Of a DNA stretch of 64,000 nt, positions 5,607-46,660 are shown in pieces. Origin of the DNA: Flavobacterium sp. WV_118_3. GTDB lineage: Bacteria > Bacteroidota > Bacteroidia > Flavobacteriales > Flavobacteriaceae. The notes beneath the pieces were generated by a model. That model ran no database searches. It was not told where the DNA came from and saw only the letters and a program-made list of their open reading frames with translations. The DNA is taken from positions 541,501 through 605,500 of the forward strand of contig NZ_CP156060.1 of assembly GCF_039778605.1 (NCBI RefSeq), given 5' to 3'. Position 1 is the stretch's first letter; each line of letters begins with the position of its first letter. A program made the translations under genes and the position numbers.

Positions 5607-5626
5607 AACTGAAATTATAAAAGTAG

Positions 5627-5655
5627 GCTACCCTTTATAGGTAGCTTATTTTTTA
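5627..5655 (+). terminator. Possible terminator after the second BtuG-like gene
   Basis: A 6-bp stem (GCTACC/GGTAGC) with a short loop is followed by TTATTTTTTAT. It is weak and could permit read-through into the T9SS protein gene. Confidence 0.5.
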
Positions 5656-5695
5656 TAAAAGTCGGCTACCGATTTACTTAAAAAAATACTACAAT

Positions 5696-6661: not shown

Positions 6662-6682
6662 TAATACTACTTTTTTGAGAAC

Positions 6683-6722
6683 AAAAGCAGGCAGAAATAT
6701 TCGATTTCTGCCTGCTTTTTTT
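6683..6722 (+). terminator. Strong intrinsic terminator ending the B12 operon
   Basis: A 16-bp perfect stem (AAAAGCAGGCAGAAAT with its complement) around the loop ATTCG-like pentamer ends in a T tract, just after the T9SS protein gene. Confidence 0.9.
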
Positions 6723-6812
6723 ATTATTTTTAATAAATTTTAAAAACGGTTGTAACAAAACAAATCCGTGTTCGTCTTCATTATATAAACCAAAACTAAC
6801 CAACCCTAAATT

Positions 6813-7331: not shown

Positions 7332-7746
7332 GTTAATCGAAAAATACTTTTCAGGTGAAACCAGTATTGCCGAAGAAAAAGAGTTGAAAAACTACTTTAT
7401 GCAGCCCGATGTGGCGCCACATCACGAGCAGTATCGCGCAATGTTGGGCTATTTCGCCCAGGCAAAAGACGAACAGTTTACAAAAACAGTTCCACTAAAA
7501 CCCAGAAAACGTAACTATGTAGCGTGGATTTCTGTAGCTGCGAGCGTCGCGCTTTTGTTTGGACTTTTCACCTTCCTGAACCAAAAACCTCAGGAACAGG
7601 ACCTCGGATCATTCGAAAACCCGGAAGTCGCTTATAAGGAAACGCAAAAAGCACTCGAAATGGTGTCGCAAAATGTTAATCTCGGCGTAAAAGGTATGGG
7701 GTACATGAAAGAATACGAAAAAACCACCAAAACAATTTTTAAATAA
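7309..7746 (+). CDS. Probable anti-sigma factor, single-pass membrane protein
   Basis: The 145-residue product has a short cytoplasmic N-terminal part (RLIEKYFSGETSIAEEKELKNYF, quoted in spirit as residues 8-28), one transmembrane helix at about residues 70-92 (WISVAASVALLFGLFTFL) and a short exported tail. This layout and the overlap with the sigma gene match Bacteroidota anti-sigma factors. The ATG at 7309 and one at 7324 are both possible starts. Direct sigma binding is inferred, not visible. Confidence 0.7.
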   Translation: MEFNSMDRLIEKYFSGETSIAEEKELKNYFMQPDVAPHHEQYRAMLGYFAQAKDEQFTKTVPLKPRKRNYVAWISVAASVALLFGLFTFLNQKPQEQDLGSFENPEVAYKETQKALEMVSQNVNLGVKGMGYMKEYEKTTKTIFK

Positions 7747-7771
7747 AAACCAACAAGTAACAAAAAACAGT

Positions 7772-8311
7772 ATGAAAACAATAGTTAAAAAAATAGTAGT
7801 AGCGATCGCTTTAATAATCATGCCAAGTATGGTATTGGCACAATCGCCTTTTGAAAAATTTGCCGATCAGGACGATGTCACGTCTGTAGTGGTAAATAAG
7901 AAAATGTTTGAAATGATGAGTAAAGTAAAAATGGATGCCTCCGACAAGCAAACGCAGGTGTACATTAACTTACTAAAAAAACTGGATAACCTGAAAGTGT
8001 ATACAACGACTAGTGCGAAACCCGCTTCAGAAATGAAAAGCAGTGTGACGGCCTATTTAAAAGCGAATCCGTTGGAAGAACTGATGCGGGTTAATGATAA
8101 CGGTAAAAACGTAAAAATCTACGTAAAATCAGGAGCAACCAGCAGTCAGATTAAAGAGCTCTTAATGTATATCGAAGGCGGAAGCGGAAAAGGTAATGAA
8201 ACCGTATTGATGTCGTTAACCGGTAATTTCGATTTAGATGAAATTTCAGCCTTAACCGAGAAAATGAAACTTCCGGGCGGTGAAACTTTAAAGAAAGCAT
8301 CACAGAAATAA
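7772..8311 (+). CDS. DUF4252 domain exported protein
   Basis: This 179-residue protein has a signal peptide (ending MVLAQ) and a DUF4252-type body: an N-terminal FEKFADQDDVTSVVVNKKMF segment followed by an alternating alpha/beta region. In Bacteroidota such proteins are regularly found behind an ECF sigma/anti-sigma pair, as here, 25 bases after the anti-sigma gene. Molecular function is unknown; a role in the sigma factor's envelope response is inferred. Confidence 0.75.
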   Translation: MKTIVKKIVVAIALIIMPSMVLAQSPFEKFADQDDVTSVVVNKKMFEMMSKVKMDASDKQTQVYINLLKKLDNLKVYTTTSAKPASEMKSSVTAYLKANPLEELMRVNDNGKNVKIYVKSGATSSQIKELLMYIEGGSGKGNETVLMSLTGNFDLDEISALTEKMKLPGGETLKKASQK

Positions 8312-8325
8312 TATAAATCAGAATT

Positions 8326-8355
8326 CCTGTTCATCTTTGGTGAACAGGTTTTTTT
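8326..8355 (+). terminator. Intrinsic terminator between the DUF4252 genes
   Basis: An 8-bp stem CCTGTTCA/TGAACAGG with loop TCTTTGG-like heptamer is followed by seven or more T residues. It probably attenuates transcription into the second DUF4252 gene. Confidence 0.75.
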
Positions 8356-8373
8356 AACATTAATACGGATATT

Positions 8374-8913
8374 ATGAAAAGAATAGGCACCTTATTGGTC
8401 GTACTTTCATTAGCACTGACCGGTTGTGAAACCAAACCGAGTTTACAGAAATATTTTGTAGAAAATTCGGATAATAAAGAATTTTTAGCGGTCGATATTT
8501 CTCCGAGCATTATCAATGTGGATAAAGTAGCTCTTTCGACGGAAGAGAAAAAAGCCCTGGAATCCTTTAAAAAAATGAATGTACTGGCTTTTAAAGCCGA
8601 TGGTAAAAACCAGCAGGAATTTGATGTGGAACGCAGTAAAGTAAAAGAAATTTTAAAAGATCCGACGTATCAGGAATTGGTAAAAGCCGGAAATGGAAAA
8701 GATGGTGCTGCGATTTACTTTGTGGGCGATACCGACCATATCAGTGAGTTTGTATTGTACGGATGTAAGAGCGAAAACGGATTTGCCGTAGCGCGAATTA
8801 TTGGTGACAATATGAATCCAAACGATGTAATGGCCTTATTCGGATTGATGAAAAAAGGAAACATCGATATGGAGCAGTTAAAACCATTACAACAATTAAT
8901 GGGGAAACCCTAA
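8374..8913 (+). CDS. DUF4252 domain lipoprotein
   Basis: The 179-residue product is a lipoprotein (LALTGC lipobox) with the same length and general layout as the preceding DUF4252 protein (KALESFKKMNVLAFKADG, then an alpha/beta body ending in MALFGLMKKG-type helices). The pair looks like an old duplication with one soluble exported and one lipid-anchored form. Function is not known. Confidence 0.72.
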   Translation: MKRIGTLLVVLSLALTGCETKPSLQKYFVENSDNKEFLAVDISPSIINVDKVALSTEEKKALESFKKMNVLAFKADGKNQQEFDVERSKVKEILKDPTYQELVKAGNGKDGAAIYFVGDTDHISEFVLYGCKSENGFAVARIIGDNMNPNDVMALFGLMKKGNIDMEQLKPLQQLMGKP

Positions 8914-8917
8914 AAAT

Positions 8918-8943
8918 AAAAAAAGCCCGTCAGGGCTTTTTTT
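8918..8943. terminator. Bidirectional terminator between convergent genes
   Basis: AGCCC/GGGCT stem flanked by an A tract on the left and a T tract on the right can serve the plus-strand sigma operon and the minus-strand iron operon. Confidence 0.8.
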
Positions 8944-10102
8944 ATTTCTTTTTAAAATTTCGGCCATACCAGATTAAAAAGCCGGTTACCGGAAGCATAC
9001 CACAAATAAAACAGACGATAAACGCCAGTATTTTTCCGGGAATTCCCAGAATTGCCCCTACGTGAATATCATAGTTGGCGGTGATCAGTTTCTCTCCAAA
9101 ATTTTTAGCACTGTGATCCCGTTGTAATAATAGTTTACCGGTATACTGATCAACTTGTAAATTGTGATGGATATAATACGCACCGTCTATTTGTTGTATA
9201 TATACGTTGATCACATCAGTTGCGCCGGCTGGTTTCCCATAATTATAGGCACTTGCCGATGGGTATTTTTCCCGACAAATTACCAGTGTTTTATCCAATG
9301 CCGAAATTGTTCCCGGTTTTGTTACGATCGATTTTTCGGTTTTAACATCCGGTGGCGTGGTCGTTCCCGAACCGGCAACATAAACGATCGCCTGAAACCA
9401 GGTAAAAGCCCATACCATTCCGGTAAACGCAATGATAATCGCGATCGAAGCAATATAAAAACCCAGAATATTGTGCAGATCGTAATTTTTACGTTTCCAT
9501 TGTGTGGTGGCTTTCCACTGAAACCAAACCCGCTGTTTGCGAGCAGCTTTGTTTTTGGGCCACCATAAAATGATACCGGTAATCAGCATAATTACAAAAG
9601 TAAAAGTACCCCAGCCGATGATGGGTTGTCCGATTTCTGTTTCCAACAGCAAGCTCCAGTGTAGCATTTTTACAATATTGAAAAAATCGGTGGTTTCATC
9701 ATAAACACCCAAAACCTTCCCGGTATACGGATTCACATAAACCGTCTGGTAATATTCGATATTCCCAAAATGAAAAATAGAATCAGGCTTGTCTTTTCGT
9801 TTATAACTGCGAAAGGTCCAGGCTTTATCCGGATCGTTATAGATAACAATGGAGGCATTTTTAATACGTTCTCCAATTTGCTGTTGGGTCGTTTCCCATA
9901 ACTGACTAACCGGAAGTGTCTTTTCGGCTTTTTCGGTTACATATAGTACATCTTTCCGAAGCCAATTGGAAATTTCTTCGTTAAATACAAAAATGCAGCC
10001 GGTTACGGAAAGAAAAAGTACAATGATGCCAGAAGCCAGTCCCAGCCACAAATGCATTTTTCCAATCCAATATTTAAAGTCTCTTTTCTTCTTTTTAGCC
10101 AT
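8942..10102 (-). CDS. PepSY-associated transmembrane protein (iron-uptake associated)
   Basis: The 386-residue protein has four predicted membrane helices (near residues 17-35, 160-178, 210-232 and 355-378) and two periplasmic PepSY-type stretches (YVNPYTGKVLGVYD and VDQYTGKLLLQRD). Conserved histidines in the helices (KMHLWLGLASG, LHWSLL, LHNILGFYIA, YDIHVGAILG) resemble haem-binding ferric-siderophore reductases of the FsrB/PiuB type. It is the last gene of a minus-strand set with a siderophore receptor, so a role in iron release from the siderophore in the inner membrane is likely but inferred. Confidence 0.8.
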   Translation of the reverse strand: MAKKKKRDFKYWIGKMHLWLGLASGIIVLFLSVTGCIFVFNEEISNWLRKDVLYVTEKAEKTLPVSQLWETTQQQIGERIKNASIVIYNDPDKAWTFRSYKRKDKPDSIFHFGNIEYYQTVYVNPYTGKVLGVYDETTDFFNIVKMLHWSLLLETEIGQPIIGWGTFTFVIMLITGIILWWPKNKAARKQRVWFQWKATTQWKRKNYDLHNILGFYIASIAIIIAFTGMVWAFTWFQAIVYVAGSGTTTPPDVKTEKSIVTKPGTISALDKTLVICREKYPSASAYNYGKPAGATDVINVYIQQIDGAYYIHHNLQVDQYTGKLLLQRDHSAKNFGEKLITANYDIHVGAILGIPGKILAFIVCFICGMLPVTGFLIWYGRNFKKK

Positions 10103-10124
10103 CCTGAAAAACGTTTTTTAGCAA

Positions 10125-10844
10125 TTAGTTTGGTAAGGTATAAACAGCACTATGCCAGATAAACTGATAGTCTTTGCCATCATAATTTCCGGGTGTTTCT
10201 TCTTTTTGAGTAGCTTCCACCACATATTGCGTTTTAAACGGCGTTTTAAACGTTAGCGTTCCGTTTTTGTCGGTTTTTATTTTTCGGGACCATTGATCCG
10301 GGATAAATAAATCGATTTCTTTTTCGGAAAACGGTTCGTTTTTATAGGTGATTTTTAGCGTTACTTCACCTGCTTTTTTAGAAATGTCGGCTATCGATAA
10401 ACCCGATGGATTTTGAGAAACACTATCCGCTAAACCATTTCCAACGGTTGTTTTGGCTGTAGCATGATAATGGGTTTTAAAAATTCCGAAATTGTATTTG
10501 GTAAAATCAATAACCTCGATTTTATCATTATCCAGAATAAAAGTATAGGTTCCGTTGGTTTTCGGTGTAAAGGAAGCCTTGTAGAAAAGATCCGACGGTG
10601 TTACATCCAGTTTTGTTTTTTCACCGTTTGGCGCGATTGCCCAAAGTGTGAAACGTTTCATCTTATTAAAAGTATCACTGCCTACTTTTTCGCGAACATC
10701 ATGTCCGTATTCGCCAAAATAAACCCGAACTTCCTGTGGCGTATTGATTTTTCCTTTTGAGGTGGTTTCGATCCACATAAAATGGGCAAAGCTTTTGGTA
10801 GCACCCAGAATAAAAAGTGTAAAAATTAAAATCAGATTTCTCAT
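10125..10844 (-). CDS. DUF4198 periplasmic protein
   Basis: This 239-residue protein has a signal peptide (ending KSFA) and mature start HFMWIETTSKG, the usual opening of DUF4198 proteins, followed by two Ig-like beta domains (GTYTFILDND, and a carboxypeptidase-regulatory-like part with KEIDLFIPDQW and GTLTFKTPF). The family is often encoded beside TonB receptors and metal transport genes. The N-terminal histidine suggests metal binding, which is inference. It sits 22 bases upstream of the PepSY gene and is probably cotranscribed. Confidence 0.75.
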   Translation of the reverse strand: MRNLILIFTLFILGATKSFAHFMWIETTSKGKINTPQEVRVYFGEYGHDVREKVGSDTFNKMKRFTLWAIAPNGEKTKLDVTPSDLFYKASFTPKTNGTYTFILDNDKIEVIDFTKYNFGIFKTHYHATAKTTVGNGLADSVSQNPSGLSIADISKKAGEVTLKITYKNEPFSEKEIDLFIPDQWSRKIKTDKNGTLTFKTPFKTQYVVEATQKEETPGNYDGKDYQFIWHSAVYTLPN

Positions 10845-10909
10845 AACATACGAGTTTAACGGTTAAAATAGAAAGGAGCCAACTCAAAGGAGTAGCTCTT
10901 TTTGTGGGA

Positions 10910-10938
10910 AACCTGCCAAATCAGAAATCTGGCAGGTT
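10910..10938 (-). other. Intergenic hairpin, possible weak terminator or attenuator
   Basis: A perfect 9-bp stem (AACCTGCCA/TGGCAGGTT) with an 11-base loop lies between the siderophore receptor and the DUF4198 gene. There is no good T tract on the minus strand, so it may stabilise mRNA ends or attenuate rather than terminate. Confidence 0.45.
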
Positions 10939-10986
10939 ATAGGATATGGCATTTTAAAAATACCCTGTATAACAAACTAAAATCAA

Positions 10987-13362
10987 TTAGAATTTATAGG
11001 TTAATCCAGCCGTAATCGAACGCAATGTTTGCGGACTAACGGTTGACCATCCCGAATAATATTTTTCATTCGAAATATTATTCATTTTCAAAATGATATT
11101 GAATCGATCGGCAGTATAGGATAAAGCCGTATTAATTACCGTATAGCTTGGAAGGACAAAAGTCCCGATATTCGAACGGTTTAATGTTTTTTGATCACTG
11201 GCATAATTTCCACCAAAACCAAAACCAAATCCTTTAATGCTACCTTCGGTAAACGTATAATTAGCCCAAAGATTTACCAGTGTTTCCGGACCGGCACTTT
11301 CCGGGCGCAATCCTAAATATCCTGATGTTTCAAGGTCTTTGGTTACTTCGGCATTGTTGGTGCTAAAACCGGCAATAATGTTTAATCCTTCAACCGGATT
11401 GGCTACTACGCTCACTTCAAGACCTTTACTTTTGATTTCGCCTCCTTGTGTATAGGTTGCAGGACCATTACCCACATTCATTACGATATTACTTACCGTA
11501 ATGTTGTAATAACTCACGGTAGCACTTAGTTTATTGTTAAAAAAGCTGGATTTAACACCAAACTCATATTGGTTTGCTTTTTCAGGATCGAAAGTACGGT
11601 AGCCTTCGCGCTCGTTGGTTACCGAGTTAGTGATAGCTTGCGGTAATACGTTTTTAAATCCGTTCATATAATTGGCAAAAACGGATAATTTGTCCTGAAT
11701 CGGTTGGTATACTAAACCGAATTTCGGTGAAAAAGCGGTTTGTCCTTTCTTTTCGTCTCCTACTTCTCCTATAAAATGATCCACACGTAAACTTCCCATC
11801 GCCGATAATGCAGGTGTAATATTGATGACATCCGAAATATAAGCGGCATACGTTTCAGTTTCGGCATTCGATCGTGTAAAGTCGGTAGTTGCCAAAGCGG
11901 TATCGGCAGCCAATTGGGTTAGGTTTCCGGTATCCTGGCTATTGGATAAGGTTACCACACCCAAAGCGGCCCATCCGGCACCGTTGTCTTTTTGAATACC
12001 ATTATAATAATCCAAACCTACGACCATACGGTTGCGTAAACCGGCAATTTTAAAATCACCGATAAAGTTTTGCTGGATATCGGTGCTATTGGTTTGTGCA
12101 TTGGCTTTGGTAATATAGCGGGTAAACGAATCGTCTGTTCCACTGCTATATAAATAAGAATAATAACCGTCCGATTTGGCTGTACTTCTGGAAATAGCCG
12201 TTTGTGAAGTCCACGAATCCGATAGTTTGTATAGCATTTGCGCCTGTAAACTAAAGGTCGGATTGCTAATGGATAGTGCGTTTGACGTAAATGAATTTTT
12301 ATAATTTTTGTCAAACAGTTTAATATCGGTAAACGGAAGAGGGGAGTTTCTATTTAAGAACAACATCGGTGCATAGGATCCTTCCGAATTTAAAAATTCT
12401 GTATTGATCATAAATGTTAAGCGATCGGATGCTTTATAGGTTAACGACGGAGCGATAAAAAAGGATTTGCTATAACCGGCATCCTGAAAAGAATCTCCAT
12501 TTTGATAGGCGGCATTAACACGTAAAAAGGTATCATTGTTTTTGCCCAGTGGGGTGTTTATATCAGCGGTTACACGGTTAAGTCCGTATGTTCCGGCCTG
12601 GTACGACAATTCGCCACCAAAGGTTTCGTATGGTTTTTTGGTTACGACATTAATCAAACCACCATAGGAAATCAGGCTGCTTCCGTATAACGTTCCGGAA
12701 GGTCCTTTGATCACTTCAATACTTTCGATATTGGAAAAATCAATTTTACCATTGTTGATATACGGTAAACCGTTTAACATGGTGGGTTGTACCGAAAAAC
12801 CACGCATAGAAAAATATTCGGCTCCATCACCGCCACGACCGGTCGATTCCCATAAACGGGTGATCCCGGTGGCATTTTTTAGCGCTTCGTTAAAGTTGGT
12901 CACAACCTGTTCTTTTAATAATTCTGCCGGAACGGATACATAAACCTGTGGGTTTTCAATATCCTTTAACGGCATTTTCGATACGGTTGTACTGCTTCGT
13001 TTCGTGAATTTGTTTGTTTTTTTCTCGTTGATCACAACATCGTCCAATTCGTTTACAACTTCTTTTAGAATGATGTTGGGTAGTGTGCTTTGTGCTGCGT
13101 TTAGGGTAATCTTGGTTTCGGTTCTTTTATAGCCTACCATGGTTACGCGTAGGGTGTAGGTGCCGTAATTCAGATTGGAAATGGTGTACTGACCTTCGTA
13201 ATTGGTCGACGTTCCGATCGAGGTTTTCAGTACGCTTATACTGGCATTTGGGAGTGCTACTCCGGATTCATTTTGAACAACCCCTTTTATAGTTCCTTTG
13301 TTTTGAGCAAATGTTACCAGAGAAAATAGACTCCATAATAACACTAGGATTTGTCTGTTCAT
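10987..13362 (-). CDS. TonB-dependent siderophore receptor
   Basis: The 791-residue outer-membrane receptor has a signal peptide (ending LVTFAQ), a carboxypeptidase-regulatory-like domain (about residues 22-110, GTIKGVVQNESGVALPNAS), a plug (about 125-240, with SMRGFSVQPTMLNGLPYIN and GPSGTLYGSS) and a long beta-barrel ending in SITAGLTYKF. The SxRGF and KGPSGxLYG motifs are typical of ferric-siderophore receptors of the FhuA/FoxA type. It leads the iron-related genes to its left and has a good promoter. Confidence 0.92.
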   Translation of the reverse strand: MNRQILVLLWSLFSLVTFAQNKGTIKGVVQNESGVALPNASISVLKTSIGTSTNYEGQYTISNLNYGTYTLRVTMVGYKRTETKITLNAAQSTLPNIILKEVVNELDDVVINEKKTNKFTKRSSTTVSKMPLKDIENPQVYVSVPAELLKEQVVTNFNEALKNATGITRLWESTGRGGDGAEYFSMRGFSVQPTMLNGLPYINNGKIDFSNIESIEVIKGPSGTLYGSSLISYGGLINVVTKKPYETFGGELSYQAGTYGLNRVTADINTPLGKNNDTFLRVNAAYQNGDSFQDAGYSKSFFIAPSLTYKASDRLTFMINTEFLNSEGSYAPMLFLNRNSPLPFTDIKLFDKNYKNSFTSNALSISNPTFSLQAQMLYKLSDSWTSQTAISRSTAKSDGYYSYLYSSGTDDSFTRYITKANAQTNSTDIQQNFIGDFKIAGLRNRMVVGLDYYNGIQKDNGAGWAALGVVTLSNSQDTGNLTQLAADTALATTDFTRSNAETETYAAYISDVINITPALSAMGSLRVDHFIGEVGDEKKGQTAFSPKFGLVYQPIQDKLSVFANYMNGFKNVLPQAITNSVTNEREGYRTFDPEKANQYEFGVKSSFFNNKLSATVSYYNITVSNIVMNVGNGPATYTQGGEIKSKGLEVSVVANPVEGLNIIAGFSTNNAEVTKDLETSGYLGLRPESAGPETLVNLWANYTFTEGSIKGFGFGFGGNYASDQKTLNRSNIGTFVLPSYTVINTALSYTADRFNIILKMNNISNEKYYSGWSTVSPQTLRSITAGLTYKF

Positions 13363-35107: not shown

Positions 35108-35123
35108 GTGACCCGGCTGGGAT
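35108..35123. repeat. Left attachment repeat (attL core)
   Basis: GTGACCCGGCTGGGAT is identical to 46587-46602 and corresponds to the last 15 bases of tRNA-Lys plus one. After it the sequence departs from tRNA. This is the truncated side. Confidence 0.85.
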
Positions 35124-35168: not shown

Positions 35169-35463
35169 TGGGTAACCAAAAGGGTAACCATAAAATTTAG
35201 TTTTTTATGTGCTATTTTAAAGAACTTCTTTCTGTTGTTGCAAATATAAGCAAAATTTCTAATCATACTTGAAATGGTTACCCAATTTGTATTTTCGGTT
35301 ACCCATTTGTTAAAAGTGGTTACCCATTTTATTTGTTGTCAAAAACAGACATCTCCATTTATAAAATTTCATAAAATAATGTTGTTTGGAAACTGATAAT
35401 TTTGATTTTTTCTTATTTCCAAGTCAATTTTTGGTTACCCAATTTAGTGTTTCTGGTTACCCA
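35169..35463. repeat. Left-end cluster of GGTTACCCA sites
   Basis: Seven copies of a 9-10-bp motif occur: inverted orientation at 35169-35178 and 35181-35190 (TGGGTAACCA, AGGGTAACCA), and direct orientation at 35275-35284, 35296-35305, 35317-35326, 35432-35441 and 35454-35463. The number and mixed orientations resemble arm-type integrase or excision-factor sites near attL. Two of these head a longer direct repeat (35317-35360 and 35454-35495) ending in ACAGACATCTCCATT. Confidence 0.85.
35317..35360 (+). repeat. Longer direct repeat, first copy (second at 35454-35495)
   Basis: Both copies read TGGTTACCCATTTTATT, one variable base, GTTGTC, A-rich, then ACAGACATCTCCATT, with three or so differences in about 43 bases. 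Spacing is 137 bases. Probably a duplicated protein-binding module of the recombination region. Confidence 0.8.
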
Positions 35464-35656
35464 TTTTATTAGTTGTCGAAACAGACATCTCCATTATTCA
35501 CCATAATAAATAATCAAAAGGTGAAAAATAGATATACTAACTTAGTATAGATTTAGAGGTACGAAAAATCTTAAATATAGCTGATGAAAGAATGTCGCAA
35601 AAATTAACTTAACTATTACTCTACTTTTTATTTGTATATTCACAGGCTAAGTCTTA

Positions 35657-36149: not shown

Positions 36150-36347
36150 ATGAAAATCAATAGGTTAAAAATAATCCTTGCAGAAAAAAGCAAAACCAAT
36201 AAATGGCTGGCTGAAAAACTAAGCAAAAGTGAAGTAACGGTATCCCGTTGGGTCACCAATGAAGTACAGCCTTCAGTAGAAACTTTGGCAGAGATTGCCC
36301 AATTGTTAAAAATTGATGTAAGAGAATTGTTGAATTCAACCAAATAA
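36150..36347 (+). CDS. XRE-type helix-turn-helix regulator (possible C protein)
   Basis: The 65-residue protein is almost entirely a Cro/C1-type helix-turn-helix: KSKTNKWLAEKLSKSEVTVSRW is the two-helix unit, ending with LAEIAQLLKIDVRELL. Its size and position two bases before a methylase gene match controller (C) proteins that time methylase and nuclease expression. A palindrome lies upstream of the start. Confidence 0.85.
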   Translation: MKINRLKIILAEKSKTNKWLAEKLSKSEVTVSRWVTNEVQPSVETLAEIAQLLKIDVRELLNSTK

Positions 36348-36349
36348 TT

Positions 36350-38548
36350 ATGAGCATTATACAACAAGGAATAGGTAAAAAACTGATTAAAATATCAGAG
36401 GATCAAAAAACGATAACCTATATTCATCAAAATAAAAATAGAAACTATAACAATCCAGAAGAAAAAGTTCAAGCAGAAGCTTTTTTAAAATTAGTATTGC
36501 AGTACAAATACAAACCAGAACGTATAAAACAATATGTATCTGTAACTATGGGCTCTGGTATCAAAGAGGCAGATATCGTGGTATATAATGATGATGCTTG
36601 TGAGCAACCACATATTTTGGTAGAATGTAAAAAACCGAATGTAAGTCAGCAAGAATTTTTACAGGCTGTAGAACAAGCGTATAGTTATGCCTATGCAATG
36701 CCTAACGAGGTAAAATATGTATGGGTGACCAATGGAGATAATAATGAGTATTTTGAAGTAGATAAATCTAAACATACTCGCATTACCCAGCCTGATATAC
36801 CGCAATTTGGAGTAAAAAAATTAGCTCATTATAAATTTGTATACGATGCCGAAAGTTTGAAACAAATAGAAGGCAAACAAGATTATTTTGATTTGATAGA
36901 AATTGGGGAGGATGATCTTACAAGAAGATTTAAGCAAGCCCACGATGCTCTTTGGGGAGGCGGACAGCTAAACCCTTCAGAAGCATTTGATGAATTGGAC
37001 AAACTTATTTTCTGTAAAATATGGGATGAGAAAAAGGATCGAAAACCAGGACAATCTTACGATTTTCAAATCATAACGGTAGATACAGAAGCCGTACCGA
37101 GCTATACGAAATTAAGTCCTTTGCAAATAGAAACCGAAAAGAGAAGAATAGAAAACCAGCAACTAAAGGAGCGTGTTGAAAGTTTGTATGAAGAAGGAAG
37201 AGAAAGAGACAGAGAAGTTTTTAGAGATAACATACGCCTAAGTGCCGAAAAAATAAGAACTGTAGTAGGCTACTTACAAGATGTAAATATTGGTGAAACA
37301 GACTTAGATGCAAAAGGACGAGCTTTTGAAACCTTTATGGGTACATTTTTTAGAGGAAATTTTGGTCAGTATTTTACCCCTCGACCTATAGTGGAGTTTA
37401 CAGTGAAAGTGTTGCCCATTACCAATCATTCTTTAGTGTTAGATACTTCTTGCGGTAGTGGTGGCTTTTTGCTGTATGCCCTCAATAAGGTACGTAAGCA
37501 AGCCGATGAATTATATCCTAATCATAAAAACGATGTAAGGCAAAGTCAAAAACACCGTAAATTTTGGCACGACTTTGCTGAGAAAAACCTCTATGGAATA
37601 GAAATAAATGAGCAGATTTCTCGTGCTGCTAAAATGAATATGATTATTCATGACGATGGACATACCAACGTCATTACATCTGACGGATTGCTCACACCCG
37701 AAGCCATCGAAAGAAACACCGAAAACAAAGGATTTCAGTACAACAGGTTTGATTTCATCATTACCAATCCGCCTTTTGGTAGTATTGTACGACAAACAGA
37801 AAAAGCTTATCTCAAAACCTTTCAACTCGGCAAAAAAGAAGAAGACTGGTTAGCTGTAGTTGCCAAACCCGAAACGTACCGAGAAAATCAAAGTACCGAA
37901 GTATTGTTTATAGAACAATGTTACCGCTTTTTAAAACCAAACGGCTATTTGGCTATTGTGATACCAGACGGCATACTTACCAACAGTAGTTTACAATATG
38001 TGCGTACTCATATCGAAGAAACCTTCCGCATAGTAGCCGTAGTTTCTCTGCCCCAAACGGCATTTGCCGCTAATGGTGCTGGCGTAAAAAGTTCGGTTTT
38101 GTTTTTAAGAAAATACGATGAAACCCAAACAGAGCAGATTAGAAACATTAAACAAAAAACGCGTTTCAACCTCTTAGATACCAATCACTACAAAACACTG
38201 ATTGCTGACTGGGATAAAGAGAAAAAACAAGCTATAAAAGAACTGGAAAAGCAATACAAAAACGACTACCCTGAAAAAGATAAAAAAGAAATTACGGAAT
38301 TAATGCAGGAAGACAAAACCGAAATTAATAGCCGATTTGCGGACCAATTACAAGAATTAAAAGAAAGCCTACAATTGCAATATCAGCAAGAAAATGAAAG
38401 ACAATTGCCAGATTATCCCATTTTTATGGCAATAGCCGAAGATATAGGATACGACGCTACAGGTAAAAAAACCAATGTAAACGAGCTGGATAGTATTTCC
38501 ACAGAGTTAGAAAAATTTATTAACGCAATTGAAAATAACGAAATATGA
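36350..38548 (+). CDS. hsdM: Type I-like DNA methylase with N-terminal HsdR_N nuclease-like domain
   Basis: The 732-residue protein is a fusion. Residues 1-150 resemble the HsdR N-terminal PD-(D/E)xK domain, with D75 (KEADIVVY) and E92-x-K94 (ILVECKKP). Residues 290-640 are an N6-adenine methylase: motif I LDTSCGSGGFLLYAL (about 365) and motif IV TNPPFGS (about 473). The C-terminal part is helical and charged and may contact HsdS. Methylation of adenine at a site set by the HsdS protein is expected. The next gene overlaps it by four bases. Whether the nuclease-like part cuts is unknown. Confidence 0.85.
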   Translation: MSIIQQGIGKKLIKISEDQKTITYIHQNKNRNYNNPEEKVQAEAFLKLVLQYKYKPERIKQYVSVTMGSGIKEADIVVYNDDACEQPHILVECKKPNVSQQEFLQAVEQAYSYAYAMPNEVKYVWVTNGDNNEYFEVDKSKHTRITQPDIPQFGVKKLAHYKFVYDAESLKQIEGKQDYFDLIEIGEDDLTRRFKQAHDALWGGGQLNPSEAFDELDKLIFCKIWDEKKDRKPGQSYDFQIITVDTEAVPSYTKLSPLQIETEKRRIENQQLKERVESLYEEGRERDREVFRDNIRLSAEKIRTVVGYLQDVNIGETDLDAKGRAFETFMGTFFRGNFGQYFTPRPIVEFTVKVLPITNHSLVLDTSCGSGGFLLYALNKVRKQADELYPNHKNDVRQSQKHRKFWHDFAEKNLYGIEINEQISRAAKMNMIIHDDGHTNVITSDGLLTPEAIERNTENKGFQYNRFDFIITNPPFGSIVRQTEKAYLKTFQLGKKEEDWLAVVAKPETYRENQSTEVLFIEQCYRFLKPNGYLAIVIPDGILTNSSLQYVRTHIEETFRIVAVVSLPQTAFAANGAGVKSSVLFLRKYDETQTEQIRNIKQKTRFNLLDTNHYKTLIADWDKEKKQAIKELEKQYKNDYPEKDKKEITELMQEDKTEINSRFADQLQELKESLQLQYQQENERQLPDYPIFMAIAEDIGYDATGKKTNVNELDSISTELEKFINAIENNEI

Positions 38549-40065
38549 TATTGAGAGGTATTATTGATAATTCTTTAAACGGACAACTTTGTATCAGAGG
38601 TTTTGCACCTATAAAAGAGCTGGCTAATATATCCAAAGCGGATTATTCTTACCAAAGAAATCCGATACAAGATAGAGAGGATATAAGTGATTTTTTAAAA
38701 AACGAAACGTACCTTTTTTTTCCGGAAGTGATATTAAGCTATAAAATAAAGCATGATTTTTCCAAATCGAAAGACACTTTAACCCCTTTACAAAAAATAC
38801 AGTCAAATAAAAGTTTTAAATCTAACATAGACCAAACCAGTTTTAAAATAAAAAAGATTGATTATAAAAGCATTGCAGATGCAAAAGGTGTTACAACCTT
38901 GTCAGTTGTGGAAATTGAAATTAACAATTTGGCAGACAAACCATTTCATAGAATAGATGGTAACCACAGATTAAAAGCAGCGGAGGAGTCCACAGCAGAG
39001 AAAGTGGATAGAATGGTTGCTCCTTTTTGTATCATCTTGGGACAAGAATTTTACGAAAATGGGGCTATCGTTACAAATACTGAAACCGAAAATTTTGATA
39101 AGGCAATCAAAGTATTTTTTCACAATATCAATACTAAAACAATTCCTTTAACTTCTGAAGAAAATTTAAAAGTTATTATAGATGATAAACTAACATTTCC
39201 TGATACTGAATTGCAAGAACTTTTAGGCGATTATGCTTTGCTGACAAGAACATTGATTGATAAAGTTTCACCTGAGTATTTTGAAGGAATACAACACATT
39301 ATATCAGGTAAGTATCGCACCTACTACAATTCAATTTTCTGGATTTTATTAGAACGTGGAGAAGATAAAGACACCTTAGTAGAAAAAGTTTTTAACTCTT
39401 TAAAGGCAATTGATTTGCTTTACAGTGAAAATGATAGTCTTAAAGCAAATTCTAGTTTTGGTTTATTGACAGCCTTCTTATATTATCACGTGCAAGGAAA
39501 TAAAGCCAAATTTGATTTTTTTAAAGATTGGATTTTAAACAATCATATTTTTGAAATTCAAGAGGTTAAAGATGCTTCTTTAGTCAATATTTTTGACAAA
39601 ATTTCTGCCAGAAGCATTAGCGTTTTTGTAGCAATGCCTTATTATGACGGAAGTACTGAAATTATGAAAACCTATAATGATGCCTATAATCGGGTTATAA
39701 GTAAAATTACAGCCAACTTTCCACATATTTCTATCAGCTTATTACCAATAATGACGCACAGAGGAGAAACAAGAGACATTATAAATAATATGATCAACGA
39801 GATACAAAGTTGTAGCGTGTTCATTGCTGATATTACAGGAGGCAATCCAAATGTTGGCTACGAATTAGGAATTGCAAGAGCTTTGAAAAAGCCAACTATC
39901 ATTGTACGTCAATTGGGCGATACGGTAAAAGTACCATTTGACTATGAACACGATGTAAGAAACCCGTATAATGAAAAGGCAATTAGCACTTTAGAAGATG
40001 AAGTGTATAATAACCTAATAGGTATTTTGTCTAGTAATTATGGATATGTAATTGAAAATATATAA
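38545..40065 (+). CDS. DGQHR/DndB-like domain fused to nucleoside-deoxyribosyltransferase/TIR-like domain
   Basis: The 506-residue protein has two parts. Residues 1-340 include HRIDGNHRLKAAEES (D138-R142), a variant of the DGQHR motif of DndB-like/ParB-fold regulators, with FFHNINTKTIPLTSEENLK further on. Residues 353-506 hold SISVFVAMPYYDG, VFIADITGGNPNVGYELGIARAL (Glu about 440) and PTIIVRQLG, the fold of nucleoside 2-deoxyribosyltransferases and TIR-like NADases. It sits between the methylase and specificity genes, four bases overlapping the first. Role is unknown; a DNA-status sensor coupled to nucleotide cleavage is one inference. Confidence 0.7.
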   Translation: MILRGIIDNSLNGQLCIRGFAPIKELANISKADYSYQRNPIQDREDISDFLKNETYLFFPEVILSYKIKHDFSKSKDTLTPLQKIQSNKSFKSNIDQTSFKIKKIDYKSIADAKGVTTLSVVEIEINNLADKPFHRIDGNHRLKAAEESTAEKVDRMVAPFCIILGQEFYENGAIVTNTETENFDKAIKVFFHNINTKTIPLTSEENLKVIIDDKLTFPDTELQELLGDYALLTRTLIDKVSPEYFEGIQHIISGKYRTYYNSIFWILLERGEDKDTLVEKVFNSLKAIDLLYSENDSLKANSSFGLLTAFLYYHVQGNKAKFDFFKDWILNNHIFEIQEVKDASLVNIFDKISARSISVFVAMPYYDGSTEIMKTYNDAYNRVISKITANFPHISISLLPIMTHRGETRDIINNMINEIQSCSVFIADITGGNPNVGYELGIARALKKPTIIVRQLGDTVKVPFDYEHDVRNPYNEKAISTLEDEVYNNLIGILSSNYGYVIENI

Positions 40066-40066
40066 A

Positions 40067-41467
40067 ATGTACAATCTTCCCACACATACCGACCCCAATA
40101 AAATTTTTATCATCAACCGTTCTGAATTAGTTGATAGATGGGATGGAGATATGGTACTGTACAATAAAATATTGCATAATTTTAAGTATGATATTGTCTC
40201 TTTAAAAAATTTATTAATAAAAAATCCGCAATATGGAGCCAATGAAAGTGGTATAATAAGAACTTCCTTTCTTGAACCAAGATATATCAGAATAACAGAT
40301 ATTGACGAATATGGGTTACTTAAAAACGAAATTGGAGTAACGGCTCAAAATATTGAGAGTAGGTTTATTTTAGATAATGATGATATACTTTTTGCTCGTA
40401 GTGGCAATACGGTTGGAAAAGCATATATCCACAAAAAAGATACTGTAAACTATGATTGCTTTTTTGCTGGTTATATGATACGATTTGTTGTTGATAAATC
40501 TAAAATTTTACCAGATTATCTTTTTACTTATACTCAACTAGGGGTGTATAAAAATTGGGTGAAAGCTATTCAAAGAACTGCAGGACAACCAAATATAAAT
40601 GCTGAGGAATATAAATCTTTGCAAATTCCATTGCCTGGCATTAATATTCAGAAAGATATTGTTTCAATATTTCAATCTGCGTATACAAAAAAGCAAGAAA
40701 AAGAAGCCAAAGCACAACAACTATTAAACAGTATAGACACCTATCTGTTGGGCGAATTGGGTATTTCCTTGCCCGAAAAAGACAATAGTTTACAAAATCG
40801 AATATTTACAACTTCTTTTAGCGAAGTTACAGGTGGCAGGTTGGATCCAGATTATAATAGTAAATATGATTTTTTGATAAATCAAGATGCGAATTTCCCT
40901 TTCAATACTTTGGGAAGTTTAATTGTTAAACCACCTCAATATGGTGCAAATGAAGAAGCGGAAGAGTATAGTTTAGAAAATGCAATTAGATATATCAGAA
41001 TAACAGATATTGATGAAATTGGTGAATTAAAGGATTATGGAAAAAAAACAGCTAAAAACACCAATAACATTTATGAATTAAAATATAACGATATTCTTTT
41101 TGCTCGAAGTGGGTCTGTTGGTAGATGTTACATACACAAAAAGGTAGAAGAAAAAGCAATTTTCGCAGGTTATTTGATTCGATTTGTCTTAAATATTGCT
41201 AAAATCAATCCTGACTTTTTGTTTTTTTATTGCAATTCAAAAATTTATAAATATTGGGTTAGTGCAATAGAACGTCCTGCTGTACAGTCAAATATTAATT
41301 CTGAAGAGTATAAATCACTACCAATCCCGCTTCCTCCACTTGAAAAGCAAAACGAAATAGCACAGCATATTCAAGATATGCGTAGCAAAGCTAAAGTCTT
41401 GCAAGCCGATGCAAAAAATGTTTTGGAACAAGCCAAACAACAAGTAGAAAAAATGATAATAGGCTAA
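40067..41467 (+). CDS. hsdS: Type I restriction specificity subunit HsdS
   Basis: The 466-residue protein starts at the ATG one base after the previous stop. It has two target-recognition domains (about residues 45-205 and 275-455) joined by helices. The halves are strikingly alike: QYGANE, RYIRITDIDE, DILFARSG-VG--YIHKK, FAGY-IRFV, EEYKSL-IPLP occur in both. Normally the two halves differ and read different sequences; this similarity predicts a nearly symmetric DNA target. It should guide the methylase of the operon. Confidence 0.9.
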   Translation: MYNLPTHTDPNKIFIINRSELVDRWDGDMVLYNKILHNFKYDIVSLKNLLIKNPQYGANESGIIRTSFLEPRYIRITDIDEYGLLKNEIGVTAQNIESRFILDNDDILFARSGNTVGKAYIHKKDTVNYDCFFAGYMIRFVVDKSKILPDYLFTYTQLGVYKNWVKAIQRTAGQPNINAEEYKSLQIPLPGINIQKDIVSIFQSAYTKKQEKEAKAQQLLNSIDTYLLGELGISLPEKDNSLQNRIFTTSFSEVTGGRLDPDYNSKYDFLINQDANFPFNTLGSLIVKPPQYGANEEAEEYSLENAIRYIRITDIDEIGELKDYGKKTAKNTNNIYELKYNDILFARSGSVGRCYIHKKVEEKAIFAGYLIRFVLNIAKINPDFLFFYCNSKIYKYWVSAIERPAVQSNINSEEYKSLPIPLPPLEKQNEIAQHIQDMRSKAKVLQADAKNVLEQAKQQVEKMIIG

Positions 41468-41482
41468 ACTCATTAGTAAACT

Positions 41483-42829
41483 ATGATAACGCAAGATAAA
41501 GTAAAACAAATTCATACTATTTGGGATAACTATGTTTCATCTAATAAGAGAGTGCTGGATACTAAAGGGAATGAATTTGATAATATAGATGAAGCAAGAT
41601 TAAACGCAATTGTTGAACTTAAGAAATTTATTGAACAGTTTCGATCTGGAGCAATAAATGTATTTGAATTCAAGACCAATGTAGATAGCTTTAATAAAAG
41701 GAATAATCTTTGGGGTTTCACAGCGACTAAAGGTCAAATGTTTTTCAATCAATTAGTTAAAAACAGTGAATCTGATATAGAAAAATTATCTAAATTACTA
41801 AAAGAATGTCTTTATCTACCATCCAATTTAGAAGAGGCTCTTTCAAAGATAGATGTATTAGAAAAATATAGTTTTGGAATATCGTCAAAAGCTAAGGATA
41901 AGAGAAAAGCACCTAATTCTGGCTCTATTGGATATTTCCTGTCTTATTTTTGGCAGATACAGGATAATAGAGCTTGGCCAATTTTATATACTTCTCTGAT
42001 AAATGCATACAAAGAGCTAGATTTTTGGGAGGAAAAAGAAAATCAAGTACAGACGTATCGCTTTTTTTATGACTTAAACGAACAGATAAAGGTTGTTTTA
42101 AACAAGTACACAGGTAAGGAAATCAATAACTGGGATGCAGAACACGCATTTTGGAATTTTAAAGGTAATCCTAATAAAACAACAAATGTTACTCCTTCAA
42201 TTAAAAAGAAGAAACCTATTATTGTTGAAGTAGAAGAAGAAAAAATCATTGCTGCAAATGCTTCATTTGAGTTGTCAGACTACCTGATCCCTAAAGTTTC
42301 AAGATTAGTTGAATTAGGAAATAACAATGAAAATTCTTCTTCTTCCAAAGGGTTTGCGTATGAAAAATTAGTTGCCGAAATATTTAAACAGCTAGATTTT
42401 GAAGTAGAAGTTCTAGGGCAAGGTACAAGAAGAAATCCCGATGCCATCATAAGGCATAGGGAAGAAAACACTGCGTTTTTGATAGATGCAAAAGCATATT
42501 CAAATGGTTATAGCTTAGGGATAGATGATAGAGCAATTAAAGAATATATCAATCACTATTGTCCAAAATTGCAGAAAGAAGGTTATAAAAAAATAGGTTT
42601 TATTATCGTAAGTAATTCGTTTAAATCTAATTTTGATGGATTTATTAATGAAATTACATGGAATACAGACATTAAAAGATTTATACTATTATCATCAGAA
42701 GCATTATTATACCTTTTAGCATATAAAACAAAAGACAGAATTCCTCCGGCTACTATTATTGAAACATTAATAAGTTTTGGTAATCCTATCGAATCTAAAA
42801 ATATTATAGAGGAATTTGATGATGTATAA
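41483..42829 (+). CDS. Restriction endonuclease with FokI-like C-terminal cleavage domain
   Basis: The 448-residue protein has a helical/winged N-terminal part (about residues 1-270, with FWQIQDNRAWPILYTSLINAY) and a C-terminal nuclease domain. The active site reads RRNPDAII (D320) and FLIDAKAYSNGYSL (D335-x-K337), which closely resembles the FokI catalytic stretch DTKAYSGGYNL, followed by FIIVSNSFKSNFDGFINEI, like FokI's FVSGHFKGNYKAQL. It starts 16 bases after hsdS. It should cut DNA, probably as a dimer, with targeting from its own N-terminus or the HsdS-methylase complex. Confidence 0.75.
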   Translation: MITQDKVKQIHTIWDNYVSSNKRVLDTKGNEFDNIDEARLNAIVELKKFIEQFRSGAINVFEFKTNVDSFNKRNNLWGFTATKGQMFFNQLVKNSESDIEKLSKLLKECLYLPSNLEEALSKIDVLEKYSFGISSKAKDKRKAPNSGSIGYFLSYFWQIQDNRAWPILYTSLINAYKELDFWEEKENQVQTYRFFYDLNEQIKVVLNKYTGKEINNWDAEHAFWNFKGNPNKTTNVTPSIKKKKPIIVEVEEEKIIAANASFELSDYLIPKVSRLVELGNNNENSSSSKGFAYEKLVAEIFKQLDFEVEVLGQGTRRNPDAIIRHREENTAFLIDAKAYSNGYSLGIDDRAIKEYINHYCPKLQKEGYKKIGFIIVSNSFKSNFDGFINEITWNTDIKRFILLSSEALLYLLAYKTKDRIPPATIIETLISFGNPIESKNIIEEFDDV

Positions 42830-42907
42830 ATTTTTTAGACACCTATATACTTGAATGTACCAAGTAAAAATTCATACATATCATATTAACATTCAAACAT
42901 CAATACA

Positions 42908-43030
42908 ATGAAAACGTTATCCGAATATGTATTAGAAAGATTTACTGAAACCTCAAATGCAAATACAGTAAATGAAACATCTGAAAATAATCATCAGGTG
43001 GATAAAAATAAAAATACTGAGGAAGAGTAA
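42908..43030 (+). CDS. Small hypothetical protein ending the restriction-like operon
   Basis: The 40-residue peptide begins MKTLSEYVLERF and is then Asn/Thr/Glu-rich with an acidic end (NKNTEEE). It is 79 bases after the nuclease gene and 20 bases before a strong terminator, so it belongs to the same transcript. I do not recognise it; it has no signal peptide. A modulator of the nuclease or an inert leftover are both possible. Confidence 0.5.
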   Translation: MKTLSEYVLERFTETSNANTVNETSENNHQVDKNKNTEEE

Positions 43031-43613: not shown

Positions 43614-44850
43614 TAGTCAAGACTTAATCTGACAGTTGCAATAAATTAACAACTGAAAAATAGATTAGAGTTATGACTACACAAGAAAAAATCATCAAAA
43701 ACAAACTGGGTGTTTTAGAGCTTGCCCAGCACTTAGGGAATGTATCAAGAGCCTGCAAAGTAATGGGCTATTCCAGAGATAGCTTTTATAGATTCAAGGA
43801 ATTGTATGACCAAGGAGGAGAACTTGCACTTCAGGAACTTTCTAGAAGGAAGCCAATTCTAAAGAACCGAGTAGAAGAGCATATTGAACAAGCAGTTGTG
43901 GACTTGGCTATAGATCAACCCGCTTTAGGCCAATTACGCGTATCTAATGAGCTAAAAAAACAAGGCATATTAATATCTCCCGGAGGAGTTAGGAGTATAT
44001 GGATGAGGCATGATCTGCAGACCTTCAAGCTTGGATTAAAAGCCTTAGAGGCAAAGTCTGCACAGGAAGGTATTGTGTTAACGGAAGCTCAGCTTGTAGC
44101 TCTGGAAAGAGCTAAAGAAGAGAAAAAGGCACACGGCGAGATAGAAACTCATCATCCGGGATATTTGGGTGCTCAGGACACGTACTATGTTGGGAATATT
44201 AAGGGAGTTGGACATATATATCAGCAGACTTTCATTGATACATATTCTAAAGTCGCTTTTACAAAGCTGTATGATCGTAAGAATGCATTAGTTGCCGCAG
44301 ATATGCTCAATGATCAGGTAGTACCATTTTTCGAACAACATGACTTAAGATTGTTAAGAATATTAACCGATCGAGGAACAGAATACTGCGGGGTAAGAGA
44401 CCAGCATGAATATCAGCTCTATTTAGCCATCGAAGATATAGATCACACGAAAACCAAAGCAAAAAGCCCTCAAACAAATGGTATTTGCGAACGTTTCCAT
44501 CGTACTATTCAGGATGAGTTTTATGCAGTTGCATTCAGAAAGAAAGTATACCGAAGCATTCAGGAACTCCAAAACGACCTTGATCGTTGGATGATTTACT
44601 ATAATCAGGATCGTACCCATACTGGAAAGTATTGCTTTGGAAAGACACCCATGCAGACCTTCAATGATACAATTAATTTGGCAAAAGAAAAGATGCTGGA
44701 GACACTAAAAGAAGATCAACTTGTTACTTATCCGGTACAAGAAAATAAGCAACAAGTTGAATCTATAGATTTTGCAGAAACATTACTATATTCGAATAGG
44801 CAATCTGACAATTTTTAAAGACAACCAACTGTCAGATCAAGTAGTGGCTA
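43614..44850 (+). mobile_element. IS481-family insertion sequence
   Basis: Terminal inverted repeats of about 25 bp (43614-43638 and 44826-44850) share ATCTGACAGTTG and outer TAG-CA...ACTT with about 20 of 25 matches. They flank a complete transposase gene. The outermost base is uncertain and no target duplication could be identified. The IS lies inside the tRNA-Lys island. Confidence 0.75.
43673..44818 (+). CDS. IS481-family transposase
   Basis: The 381-residue protein has an N-terminal helix-turn-helix (about residues 10-60, LAQHLGNVSRACKVMGYS) and an integrase catalytic core with DDE residues in GAQDTYYVGN, ILTDRGTEYCG and NGICERFHRTIQDEF. Length and motifs match IS481. The frame is intact, so the element may be active. 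It starts 35 bases inside the left terminal repeat. Confidence 0.9.
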   Translation: MTTQEKIIKNKLGVLELAQHLGNVSRACKVMGYSRDSFYRFKELYDQGGELALQELSRRKPILKNRVEEHIEQAVVDLAIDQPALGQLRVSNELKKQGILISPGGVRSIWMRHDLQTFKLGLKALEAKSAQEGIVLTEAQLVALERAKEEKKAHGEIETHHPGYLGAQDTYYVGNIKGVGHIYQQTFIDTYSKVAFTKLYDRKNALVAADMLNDQVVPFFEQHDLRLLRILTDRGTEYCGVRDQHEYQLYLAIEDIDHTKTKAKSPQTNGICERFHRTIQDEFYAVAFRKKVYRSIQELQNDLDRWMIYYNQDRTHTGKYCFGKTPMQTFNDTINLAKEKMLETLKEDQLVTYPVQENKQQVESIDFAETLLYSNRQSDNF

Positions 44851-45020: not shown

Positions 45021-46310
45021 TTATCCTATAGTTTTAAGTTCGCCAGTATCTGTAAACAGATCTTCCCTTACTCTTTTCAAATTGCGACTAATTCGATTTT
45101 TACGAATTTTTGCATATTTCTGAGTCGTACGTATGCTTTTATGTCCAAGTAATTTACTTACGTCTTCTAAAGGCATGTCGCTATTAAGCATAAGATCTGC
45201 AAATGTATGCCTAGCTAGGTGTGTATGTAAACGTTTATTTATTCCACAAATATTAGCTATCTCTTTAAGGTATCTATTATAACGACTGTTATTATCCACA
45301 GGAAGTAAAAGTCCTTTTTTCAAGCATGACGGATGACTTTCATATTTTTCGATGATTTTTTGTGCTAATGGTAGCAAAGGAACCATCTCATTTACGTCCG
45401 TTTTATCTCTTTGTTTCGCTATCCACTTTTCACCGTTAAGACCAACTTCTTTTATACATTCTTTTGATAACTTATAGAGATCTGCATAAGAAAAGCCCGT
45501 AAAGCATTGAAAAATGAAGACATCCCGGATTTCCTCTAAAACTTTTGCAGGCATAGATTTTTGTAGCATTCTATTTATCTGTGAGAGTTCAAGAGGAATA
45601 ACTTCTGGATCTTCAGCATTGCAAACAAATTCTTGGATGGGATTACTTTTTATAAGTTCATTTTTAGCACACCTTTTTAGAATTTGTCTAGTCTTTTTGA
45701 TATAGCCTTTTGCTGTATTCTCAGCGAGTATTACATCGGCTTCGAGAGTTAAATAATCAAACAATGATTCTGCAAAACTGTATTTTATAGAGGTTAACTC
45801 TAAATCAGGTTGACCATATTTAACACATATAAAATTAGCGACTTTATTCCTTGCCGTGTTCCAATGTGTATGTGTACCATTTGATCTTTTCCCTTTATCC
45901 ACCTTTAACTTAAAATTTTTTATATAATTATCGAAAGCTTCGAGAATTGTTCGAATACCAGTTGAGGTGTCTGTTCTTTGGTGTGCAAGAGGATCTTTAC
46001 CATTATAAACATTTTTTAACATTATCGGAGTAACCTCGTCAAAAGTGGTCGTTAAACTCATAAAATGTCGATATAGGTCAATCTCAGCTTCCTTAACCTT
46101 CTTATTCGTTCTTTGAGATTCCAAAGTACCCGCCGTGTCCTTTTTATTTATTACATCCCAATTATTTGGATGTACTTTTGATTGCATAGAAATCTCTTCA
46201 GACCTACTATTAATTGTCACTCGAGCATAAAGTGGTGCCTTACCATCTTTCTTGGTCGCCTTAGCTTTAAAAAGCCAAAATAAAATCGAAAGTTTTTGAT
46301 TGTTTTTCAT
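45021..46310 (-). CDS. Tyrosine recombinase (integrase) of the island
   Basis: The 429-residue protein has an N-terminal arm-binding domain (residues 1-100, FWLFKAKATKKDGKAPLYARV), a SAM-like core-binding domain (about 110-220) and a catalytic domain with H364-x-x-R367 (THLARHTFAD), LGHKSIRTTQKY and Y399 as nucleophile. At the position of the first catalytic arginine it has Ser (S274, in FTGFSYADL), as in the CTnDOT integrase. It lies next to attR and should integrate and excise the element. Confidence 0.92.
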   Translation of the reverse strand: MKNNQKLSILFWLFKAKATKKDGKAPLYARVTINSRSEEISMQSKVHPNNWDVINKKDTAGTLESQRTNKKVKEAEIDLYRHFMSLTTTFDEVTPIMLKNVYNGKDPLAHQRTDTSTGIRTILEAFDNYIKNFKLKVDKGKRSNGTHTHWNTARNKVANFICVKYGQPDLELTSIKYSFAESLFDYLTLEADVILAENTAKGYIKKTRQILKRCAKNELIKSNPIQEFVCNAEDPEVIPLELSQINRMLQKSMPAKVLEEIRDVFIFQCFTGFSYADLYKLSKECIKEVGLNGEKWIAKQRDKTDVNEMVPLLPLAQKIIEKYESHPSCLKKGLLLPVDNNSRYNRYLKEIANICGINKRLHTHLARHTFADLMLNSDMPLEDVSKLLGHKSIRTTQKYAKIRKNRISRNLKRVREDLFTDTGELKTIG

Positions 46311-46407
46311 TTCCCAACATTTTTAAGTTATCAATTATTTCTTTCGGCTAAAACCGAAAACAAATTGAAATTCCTTAAAACCACACATTTACAAGTTCAA
46401 GAAAATT

Positions 46408-46455
46408 CGGTTACCCAATTTAAGAAACATATTTGGTAACCAAAAGGGTAACCAT
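46408..46455. repeat. Right-end GGTTACCCA sites
   Basis: CGGTTACCCA at 46408-46417, and GGTAACCAAAAGGGTAACCAT at 46435-46455, the latter identical over 21 bases to 35171-35191 at the left end. Probable arm-type recombinase sites, between the integrase gene and attR. The remaining part of 46311-46587 shows no gene. Confidence 0.85.
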
Positions 46456-46528
46456 ATTACTTAAATTAATATGGTTTTTCTTAGTTTATTTTTTACTAGA
46501 AATGTGCTTTGGAAATAATTTTAAATAG

Positions 46529-46586: not shown

Positions 46587-46602
46587 GTGACCCGGCTGGG
46601 AT
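46587..46602. repeat. Right attachment repeat (attR core)
   Basis: GTGACCCGGCTGGGAT, identical to attL at 35108-35123, here continuous with a complete tRNA-Lys gene. The element thus restores the tRNA 3' end. Confidence 0.85.
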
Positions 46603-46660
46603 TCGAACCCAGGACCCCATCATTAAAAGTGATGTGCTCTACCAGCTGAGCTACCGAGTC
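46588..46660 (-). tRNA. tRNA-Lys (anticodon TTT), integration target
   Basis: 73-nt tRNA, identical to the copies at 33392 and 46695. Its 3' end is supplied by the island's attachment repeat. Confidence 0.97.

Follow-up and report, generated by a model that had tools for sequence, protein, structure and literature searches.

Restriction-modification (RM) systems can carry an embedded guard, as in the case of PrrC, an anticodon nuclease that cuts tRNA. In type IIB systems such as BcgI and BsaXI, which cut on both sides of a split recognition site, a specificity subunit guides both modification and cleavage without DNA translocation; BsaXI activity has been rebuilt from its RM and S subunits, and the enzyme with a duplicated target-recognition domain 1 (TRD1) is reported to cleave near AC N5 GT sites (PMC9159934). 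Among proteins that act on nucleotides, MilB is an hmCMP N-glycosidase and DNPH1 an hmdUMP hydrolase (PMC4081090, PMC10603095), nucleoside 2-deoxyribosyltransferase (NDT) domains have been put forward as toxins that target DNA in biological conflicts (PMC3710099), an NDT-like effector is on record for Retron-Eco1 (PMC12887533), TIR-like NADases of the DUF4062 type are described for Swarozyc in a preprint (PMC13174449), and DndB is suggested to back up phosphorothioation by degrading nucleotides (PMC10853773). Here we describe an operon of Flavobacterium sp. WV_118_3, found in a 64,000-nucleotide stretch of contig NZ_CP156060.1 (positions 541,501 to 605,500; hereafter the window), which, to judge from sequence and predicted folds, probably encodes a type IIB-like enzyme together with a built-in glycosidase effector that is likely gated by nucleoside triphosphate (NTP).

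The operon consists of five genes on the forward strand, in the order XRE-M-N-S-F, that fill positions 36150-42829 of the window almost without gaps (E-values of family matches in brackets):

36150..36347, + strand, XRE-type regulator of 65 aa (Pfam HTH_3, 8.4e-9)
36350..38548, + strand, M, 732 aa (HSDR_N_2, 6.2e-18; N6_Mtase, 7e-38; RM.BsaXI, 1.5e-43)
38545..40065, + strand, N, 506 aa, a ParB/Srx-like part and an NDT/TIR-like part by family and predicted-fold matches
40067..41467, + strand, S, 466 aa from the ATG at 40067 (Methylase_S, 1.1e-23)
41483..42829, + strand, F, 448 aa (FokI_cleav_dom, 1.9e-9; Mrr_cat, 7.6e-5)

From XRE/M to S/F, the genes are separated in order by a 2-base gap, a 4-base overlap, a 1-base gap and a 15-base gap, and an alternative open TTG start for S lies at 40052. 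An earlier note on this DNA, made from the letters alone, had described five packed genes behind an XRE regulator in an integrated island, an HsdM with an HsdR_N-like nuclease domain, a DndB-like/NDT-like fusion inside the operon and a separate protein ending in a FokI-like cleavage domain. All of these are present, the island being an element at tRNA-Lys and the fusion being N, with its NDT match just under the cut-off and its DGQHR match weak; the note's overlap of 4 bases and gap of 1 base are likewise borne out, and its last gap is corrected from 16 to 15 bases.

M joins an N-terminal PD-(D/E)xK nuclease domain (D75, E92, K94) to an N6-adenine methylase (NPPF, residues 473-476), and its closest solved relative is the type IIB protein RM.BsaXI, which is matched over residues 11-712 of 732. 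In an alignment of the 69 M matches longer than 590 aa, the window's own among them and shorter fragments dropped, the methylase motif NPPF is kept in every row, D75 in 67 of 67 lettered rows, and E92 and K94 in 67 of 68. The three nuclease residues pair with three of the four of BsaXI, which are E73, D90, E105 and K107 (PMC11997821). Two observations call for caution in a type IIB assignment, namely that BsaXI E73 pairs with Tyr62 of M in an uncertain stretch of the alignment, and that the match to RM.BsaXI ends before the paddle region. S is an HsdS-type specificity subunit, covered by Methylase_S in two stretches, whose two target-recognition halves are alike (45% identity, 99/221 columns); because of this similarity, and by comparison with the TRD1 duplication of BsaXI, the target of M+S is predicted to be near-palindromic and split.

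As the earlier note had also observed, no HsdR, helicase or translocase family appears among the matches shown for the four proteins other than XRE (from PADLOC, the best 25 of 45 for M and the best 25 of 111 for S). When the HsdR of locus L073 was used as a query, relatives were found only in the five type I loci described below, and none in the window or in the 73 loci with M, S and N, although other HsdR families could be missed by such a search. The absence of a motor is the type IIB arrangement, and thus no new principle; by sequence, M and S together are most likely a BsaXI/BcgI-like type IIB enzyme.

N is predicted to consist of two fused domains, the first ParB/GmrS-like and the second an NDT/TIR-like glycosidase. 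Residues 1-346 are ParB/Srx-like, of the DGQHR/DndB/GmrS type, and ParB and BrxU are among the fold matches of this part. The match to NCBIfam DGQHR (TIGR03187) is weak (0.00082; 19.2 bits against a curated cut-off of 58.85), and the pentapeptide of N reads DGNHR where that family has DGQHR, RIDGNHRL itself having served as a search pattern. Across the N family, 12 of the 52 N-terminal regions compared are matched by DndB (PF14072) and 12 by GmrSD_N with E no higher than 1 (best values 2.5e-7 and 7.9e-4, respectively), the window not being among the DndB matches shown, and the N-terminal marks Q37-R38 and F192/N196 (FxxxN) are kept in 81/81 rows. Residues 355-499 form the predicted glycosidase domain, for which the NDT match, at 27.9 bits, falls just below the cut-off of 28.8, the PADLOC TIR effector match stands at 2.1e-5, and MilB and DNPH1 are the closest of the folds compared (MilB, DNPH1, NDT and TIR). 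E440, at the position of the catalytic Glu nucleophile of the MilB/DNPH1 type, is kept in all 80 readable rows while other parts of the domain diverge, and F361 is invariant in 81 rows. Position 415, by its spacing to the Glu the counterpart of Asp D80 of DNPH1 and D78 of MilB, is occupied by E, D, R, V and other residues, and by asparagine in the window. The family numbers at least 1003 matches, of which the 120 listed span at least 95% of N and bear at most a domain name as annotation.

A profile search of genome contigs with N found 140 relatives, and the analysis covers the 80 best-scoring loci. M, S and N stand together in 73 of these 80 loci, in the order M-N-S in 22, M-S-N in 42 and M-S-N with inserted genes in 9, and with 4-base overlaps at 32/43 S-N junctions and 14/23 M-N junctions. 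The 73 loci span 10 named phyla (one locus lacks a name), many being metagenome bins whose single names may be wrong, and 11 phyla occur among those 79 N rows for which a phylum is named. In five further loci (L073, L074, L076, L077 and L078) N lies directly behind a type I hsdR, with hsdM visible in L073, L074 and L077 and hsdS-like genes in these three and in the incomplete L076 and L078; two others (L066 and L069) end at a contig edge. The type I-linked N proteins form one clade (support 99), and gene order requires 4 changes on the N tree, as compared to a mean of 24.8 when shuffled. Full-length N occurs in 3 genomes of a Bacteroidota sample of 395, each time next to M and S.

Twenty loci taken around M matches include three with a close M, two of them with N and one (L113) without; the 17 with a more distant M hold no N, and G168, the fifth genome to have a close M, stops at a contig edge. 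In L113 (positions 5507-10702) the close M-S pair (M 58% identical) is followed in the same gene run, at the place of N, by KwaA (1.7e-70) and KwaB (2.2e-117), that is, by Kiwa. This replacement suggests, short of proof, that the slot, held by N or by Kiwa, is a place for a second-line effector. A different arrangement is found on a Leisingera plasmid (L082, positions 6864-9107), where an open reading frame (ORF) annotated as an N-6 DNA methylase runs from part of M straight into the latter portion of N and looks like the remnant of a deletion.

The constant third partner of M and S is N, and F is a rare accessory, present in only 2 of 81 operons: that of the window and that of L003, a Nonlabens bin in which all five genes, the HTH_3 regulator included, follow one another as in the window. 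The N-terminal part of F has no Pfam match above cut-off, and its C-terminal part is a FokI-like nuclease (PD...DAK) that scores 37.7 bits against FokI_cleav_dom (PF09254), above the gathering score of 25, with PD and DAK kept in 3/3 aligned rows. F has 552 relatives at E <= 0.001, and several of the 120 listed bear FokI C-terminal domain names. At the ends of other M+S+N operons are found, as examples rather than counts, GmrSD (L046), Mrr (L056, L070), an AAA_5 protein with an McrBC protein (L041) and relatives of both (L057), PDC-S18 (L015), Schlafen/AlbA (L021), HD-CE (L006), RhuM (L033) and a T5orf172 nuclease (L049); GmrSD, McrBC and Mrr, which close M-S-N operons in the first five of these loci, are modification-dependent restriction families. 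Elsewhere, in L168 (positions 7163-11232), a Fic-family gene (SoFic), a classical HsdM (HsdM_N, N6_Mtase) and a relative of F (52% identical) stand in a row, with neither HsdS nor HsdR between them.

The operon is carried by an 11.5-kb element integrated at tRNA-Lys, whose other features are:

35108..35123, no strand, left end of the element, where 16 bases of the tRNA-Lys 3' end recur (repeat)
43673..44818, + strand, rve/IS-type transposase within the element (Pfam rve_3, HTH_29)
45021..46310, - strand, tyrosine recombinase (integrase) of the element (Phage_integrase, 8.3e-16)
46587..46660, - strand, tRNA-Lys, the integration site and right end of the element (tRNA, and repeat with 35108)

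The tRNA-Lys 3'-end 16-mer is present at 35108, 46587, 46694 and 33391. Apart from the features named and small ORFs that overlap them on the opposite strand, the ORFs of at least 80 aa listed in the element are two small ones on the + strand (83 and 80 aa), which leaves the operon as the main cargo. Words of the sequence GGTTACCCA are repeated at both sides of the element (window 35250-35480; near 46406-46473) and are possibly recombinase arm sites.

The reading that we favour, with roughly even confidence, is that of a type IIB-like RM enzyme, M+S, accompanied by N as its likely second-line effector. M and S would form an M2S assembly that, by homology to type IIB enzymes, methylates the host site and cuts both strands beside unmethylated sites. 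The ParB/GmrS-like half of N may sense a nucleotide or DNA cue, upon which the NDT/TIR-like half would attack NAD+ or another ribonucleotide at its N-glycosidic bond; N would be silent while restriction works and be turned on by infection or by restriction failure, and the resulting loss of nucleotide or NAD+ would halt phage growth, an outcome that guards embedded in RM operons, such as PrrC, reach by another route and that NDT/TIR-type NADases bring about in other settings. F, or the unrelated nucleases at its place, could add an optional layer against DNA escaping M+S. More tentatively, the set, which occurs here in 10 named phyla, may represent a widespread undescribed restriction class. 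In it, type IIB and sometimes type I RM would be firmly coupled to an NTP-gated glycosidase of ParB fold, which would degrade NAD+ or ribonucleotides once restriction is engaged or overcome; restriction and abortive infection would thereby be united in one three-gene operon, to which an exchangeable third layer (FokI-like, GmrSD, McrBC or Mrr) can be added.

Other explanations place the role of N elsewhere. It could chiefly regulate the RM enzyme or help to assemble it, in the manner of a DndB-like repressor or ParB-like clamp with a C-terminal domain that only binds a ligand; the DndB and GmrSD_N matches to N-terminal regions of the family would allow this. The invariance of the nucleophile-position Glu in a domain whose other parts diverge argues against such a role, and we hold it to be rather unlikely. 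N could also act as a MilB/DNPH1-like pool sanitiser, hydrolysing phage-made modified nucleoside monophosphates (for example, hydroxymethylated pyrimidines) and so leaving phage DNA open to M+S. The two closest folds are indeed hydroxymethyl-nucleotide enzymes, some operons add families that target modified DNA (the GmrSD, McrBC and Mrr proteins named above), and a similar idea has been voiced for DndB (PMC10853773). However, the general-acid Asp is not conserved in the N family, and the invariant F361 falls, in our own mapping by motif spacing, on F17 of MilB, where a replacement by Tyr switches the substrate from CMP to dCMP, pointing to ribo- rather than deoxyribonucleotides; such a sanitiser is, in our estimation, unlikely.

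That the locus is a plain type IIB RM system, with N and F as mere defence-island passengers, would accord with the activity of BsaXI from RM and S alone (PMC9159934) and with the existence of related M-S pairs without N, but is difficult to reconcile with the M+S+N set at 73 of 80 N loci in 10 named phyla, where neighbouring genes often overlap by 4 bases, and with the tie of N to a separate type I clade, and is thus quite improbable. Least credible is that the operon is a divergent methylation-associated defence system (MADS). The NCBIfam models MAD2 and MAD5 do match M (5.4e-94) and S (3.8e-30), respectively, but with scores well under the cut-offs (315.7 vs 720 bits and 105.1 vs 400 bits), and XRE, N and F have no match to any mad model at E 0.1.

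No description of the operon, as combinations of DGQHR/NDT/ParB with HsdM/HsdS, was found in the literature searched, which lacks most subscription papers. A 2023 paper on nucleotide-targeting effectors, cited in PMC10853773, reportedly counts ParB domains among the effectors that degrade nucleotides, and the idea for N may thus already be partly in print. The novelty lies in N, the dedicated glycosidase-like companion of a type IIB-like restriction enzyme, and not in the missing motor. The earlier note had proposed that HsdS guides both modification and cleavage without translocation, which fits the RM.BsaXI homology of M but is the scheme already known from BcgI and BsaXI; the FokI-like nuclease that it included in the set is not the defining part, given its occurrence in 2/81 operons. 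Recurrence across genomes, which the note had put forward as a check, is far beyond chance for the M+S+N core. The candidate module of the note is thus real and recurrent, and no description of it was found in the literature searched; its motor-free M+S portion matches known type IIB enzymes.

If the favoured reading holds, many RM operons would provide layered immunity, with a metabolite-cutting effector joined to sequence-specific restriction. The idea behind PrrC would be widened to take in, besides the cutting of tRNA, the loss of nucleotides or NAD+, and a function would be assigned to a family of ParB-like plus NDT-like proteins. The proposal of DndB-like proteins as nucleotide-degrading backups (PMC10853773) would become directly testable.

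With BsaXI and BcgI the operon shares a nuclease-methylase fusion, homologous over residues 11-712 of M, and a separate S without a translocase; it differs in adding N (and F), in not clearly keeping BsaXI E73 and in its unmatched paddle. From type I RM it is set apart by the HsdR motor subunit, which is not found for the window operon among the matches shown, and with MADS it shares a distant similarity of M and S that lies below family cut-offs, with no other mad match. N resembles DndB/DGQHR proteins and GmrS (DUF262) in its QR pair, DG(N)HR, FxxxN and ParB/Srx fold, and departs from DndB/DGQHR in having DGNHR, a score below cut-off, a glycosidase-like fusion and a base-methylase partner. 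Its second half resembles MilB, DNPH1, NDT and TIR-like proteins in predicted fold and nucleophile-position Glu, and the Retron-Eco1 NDT-like effector by family name only; in contrast to MilB, DNPH1 and NDT-like effectors, N lacks a conserved general-acid Asp and sits in a restriction operon. PrrC offers a further parallel, in that its gene too lies within a set of hsd genes and a nucleotide-sensing domain is proposed for the effector, but PrrC is an anticodon nuclease, whereas N is predicted to cut nucleotides and is partnered with a type IIB-like enzyme.

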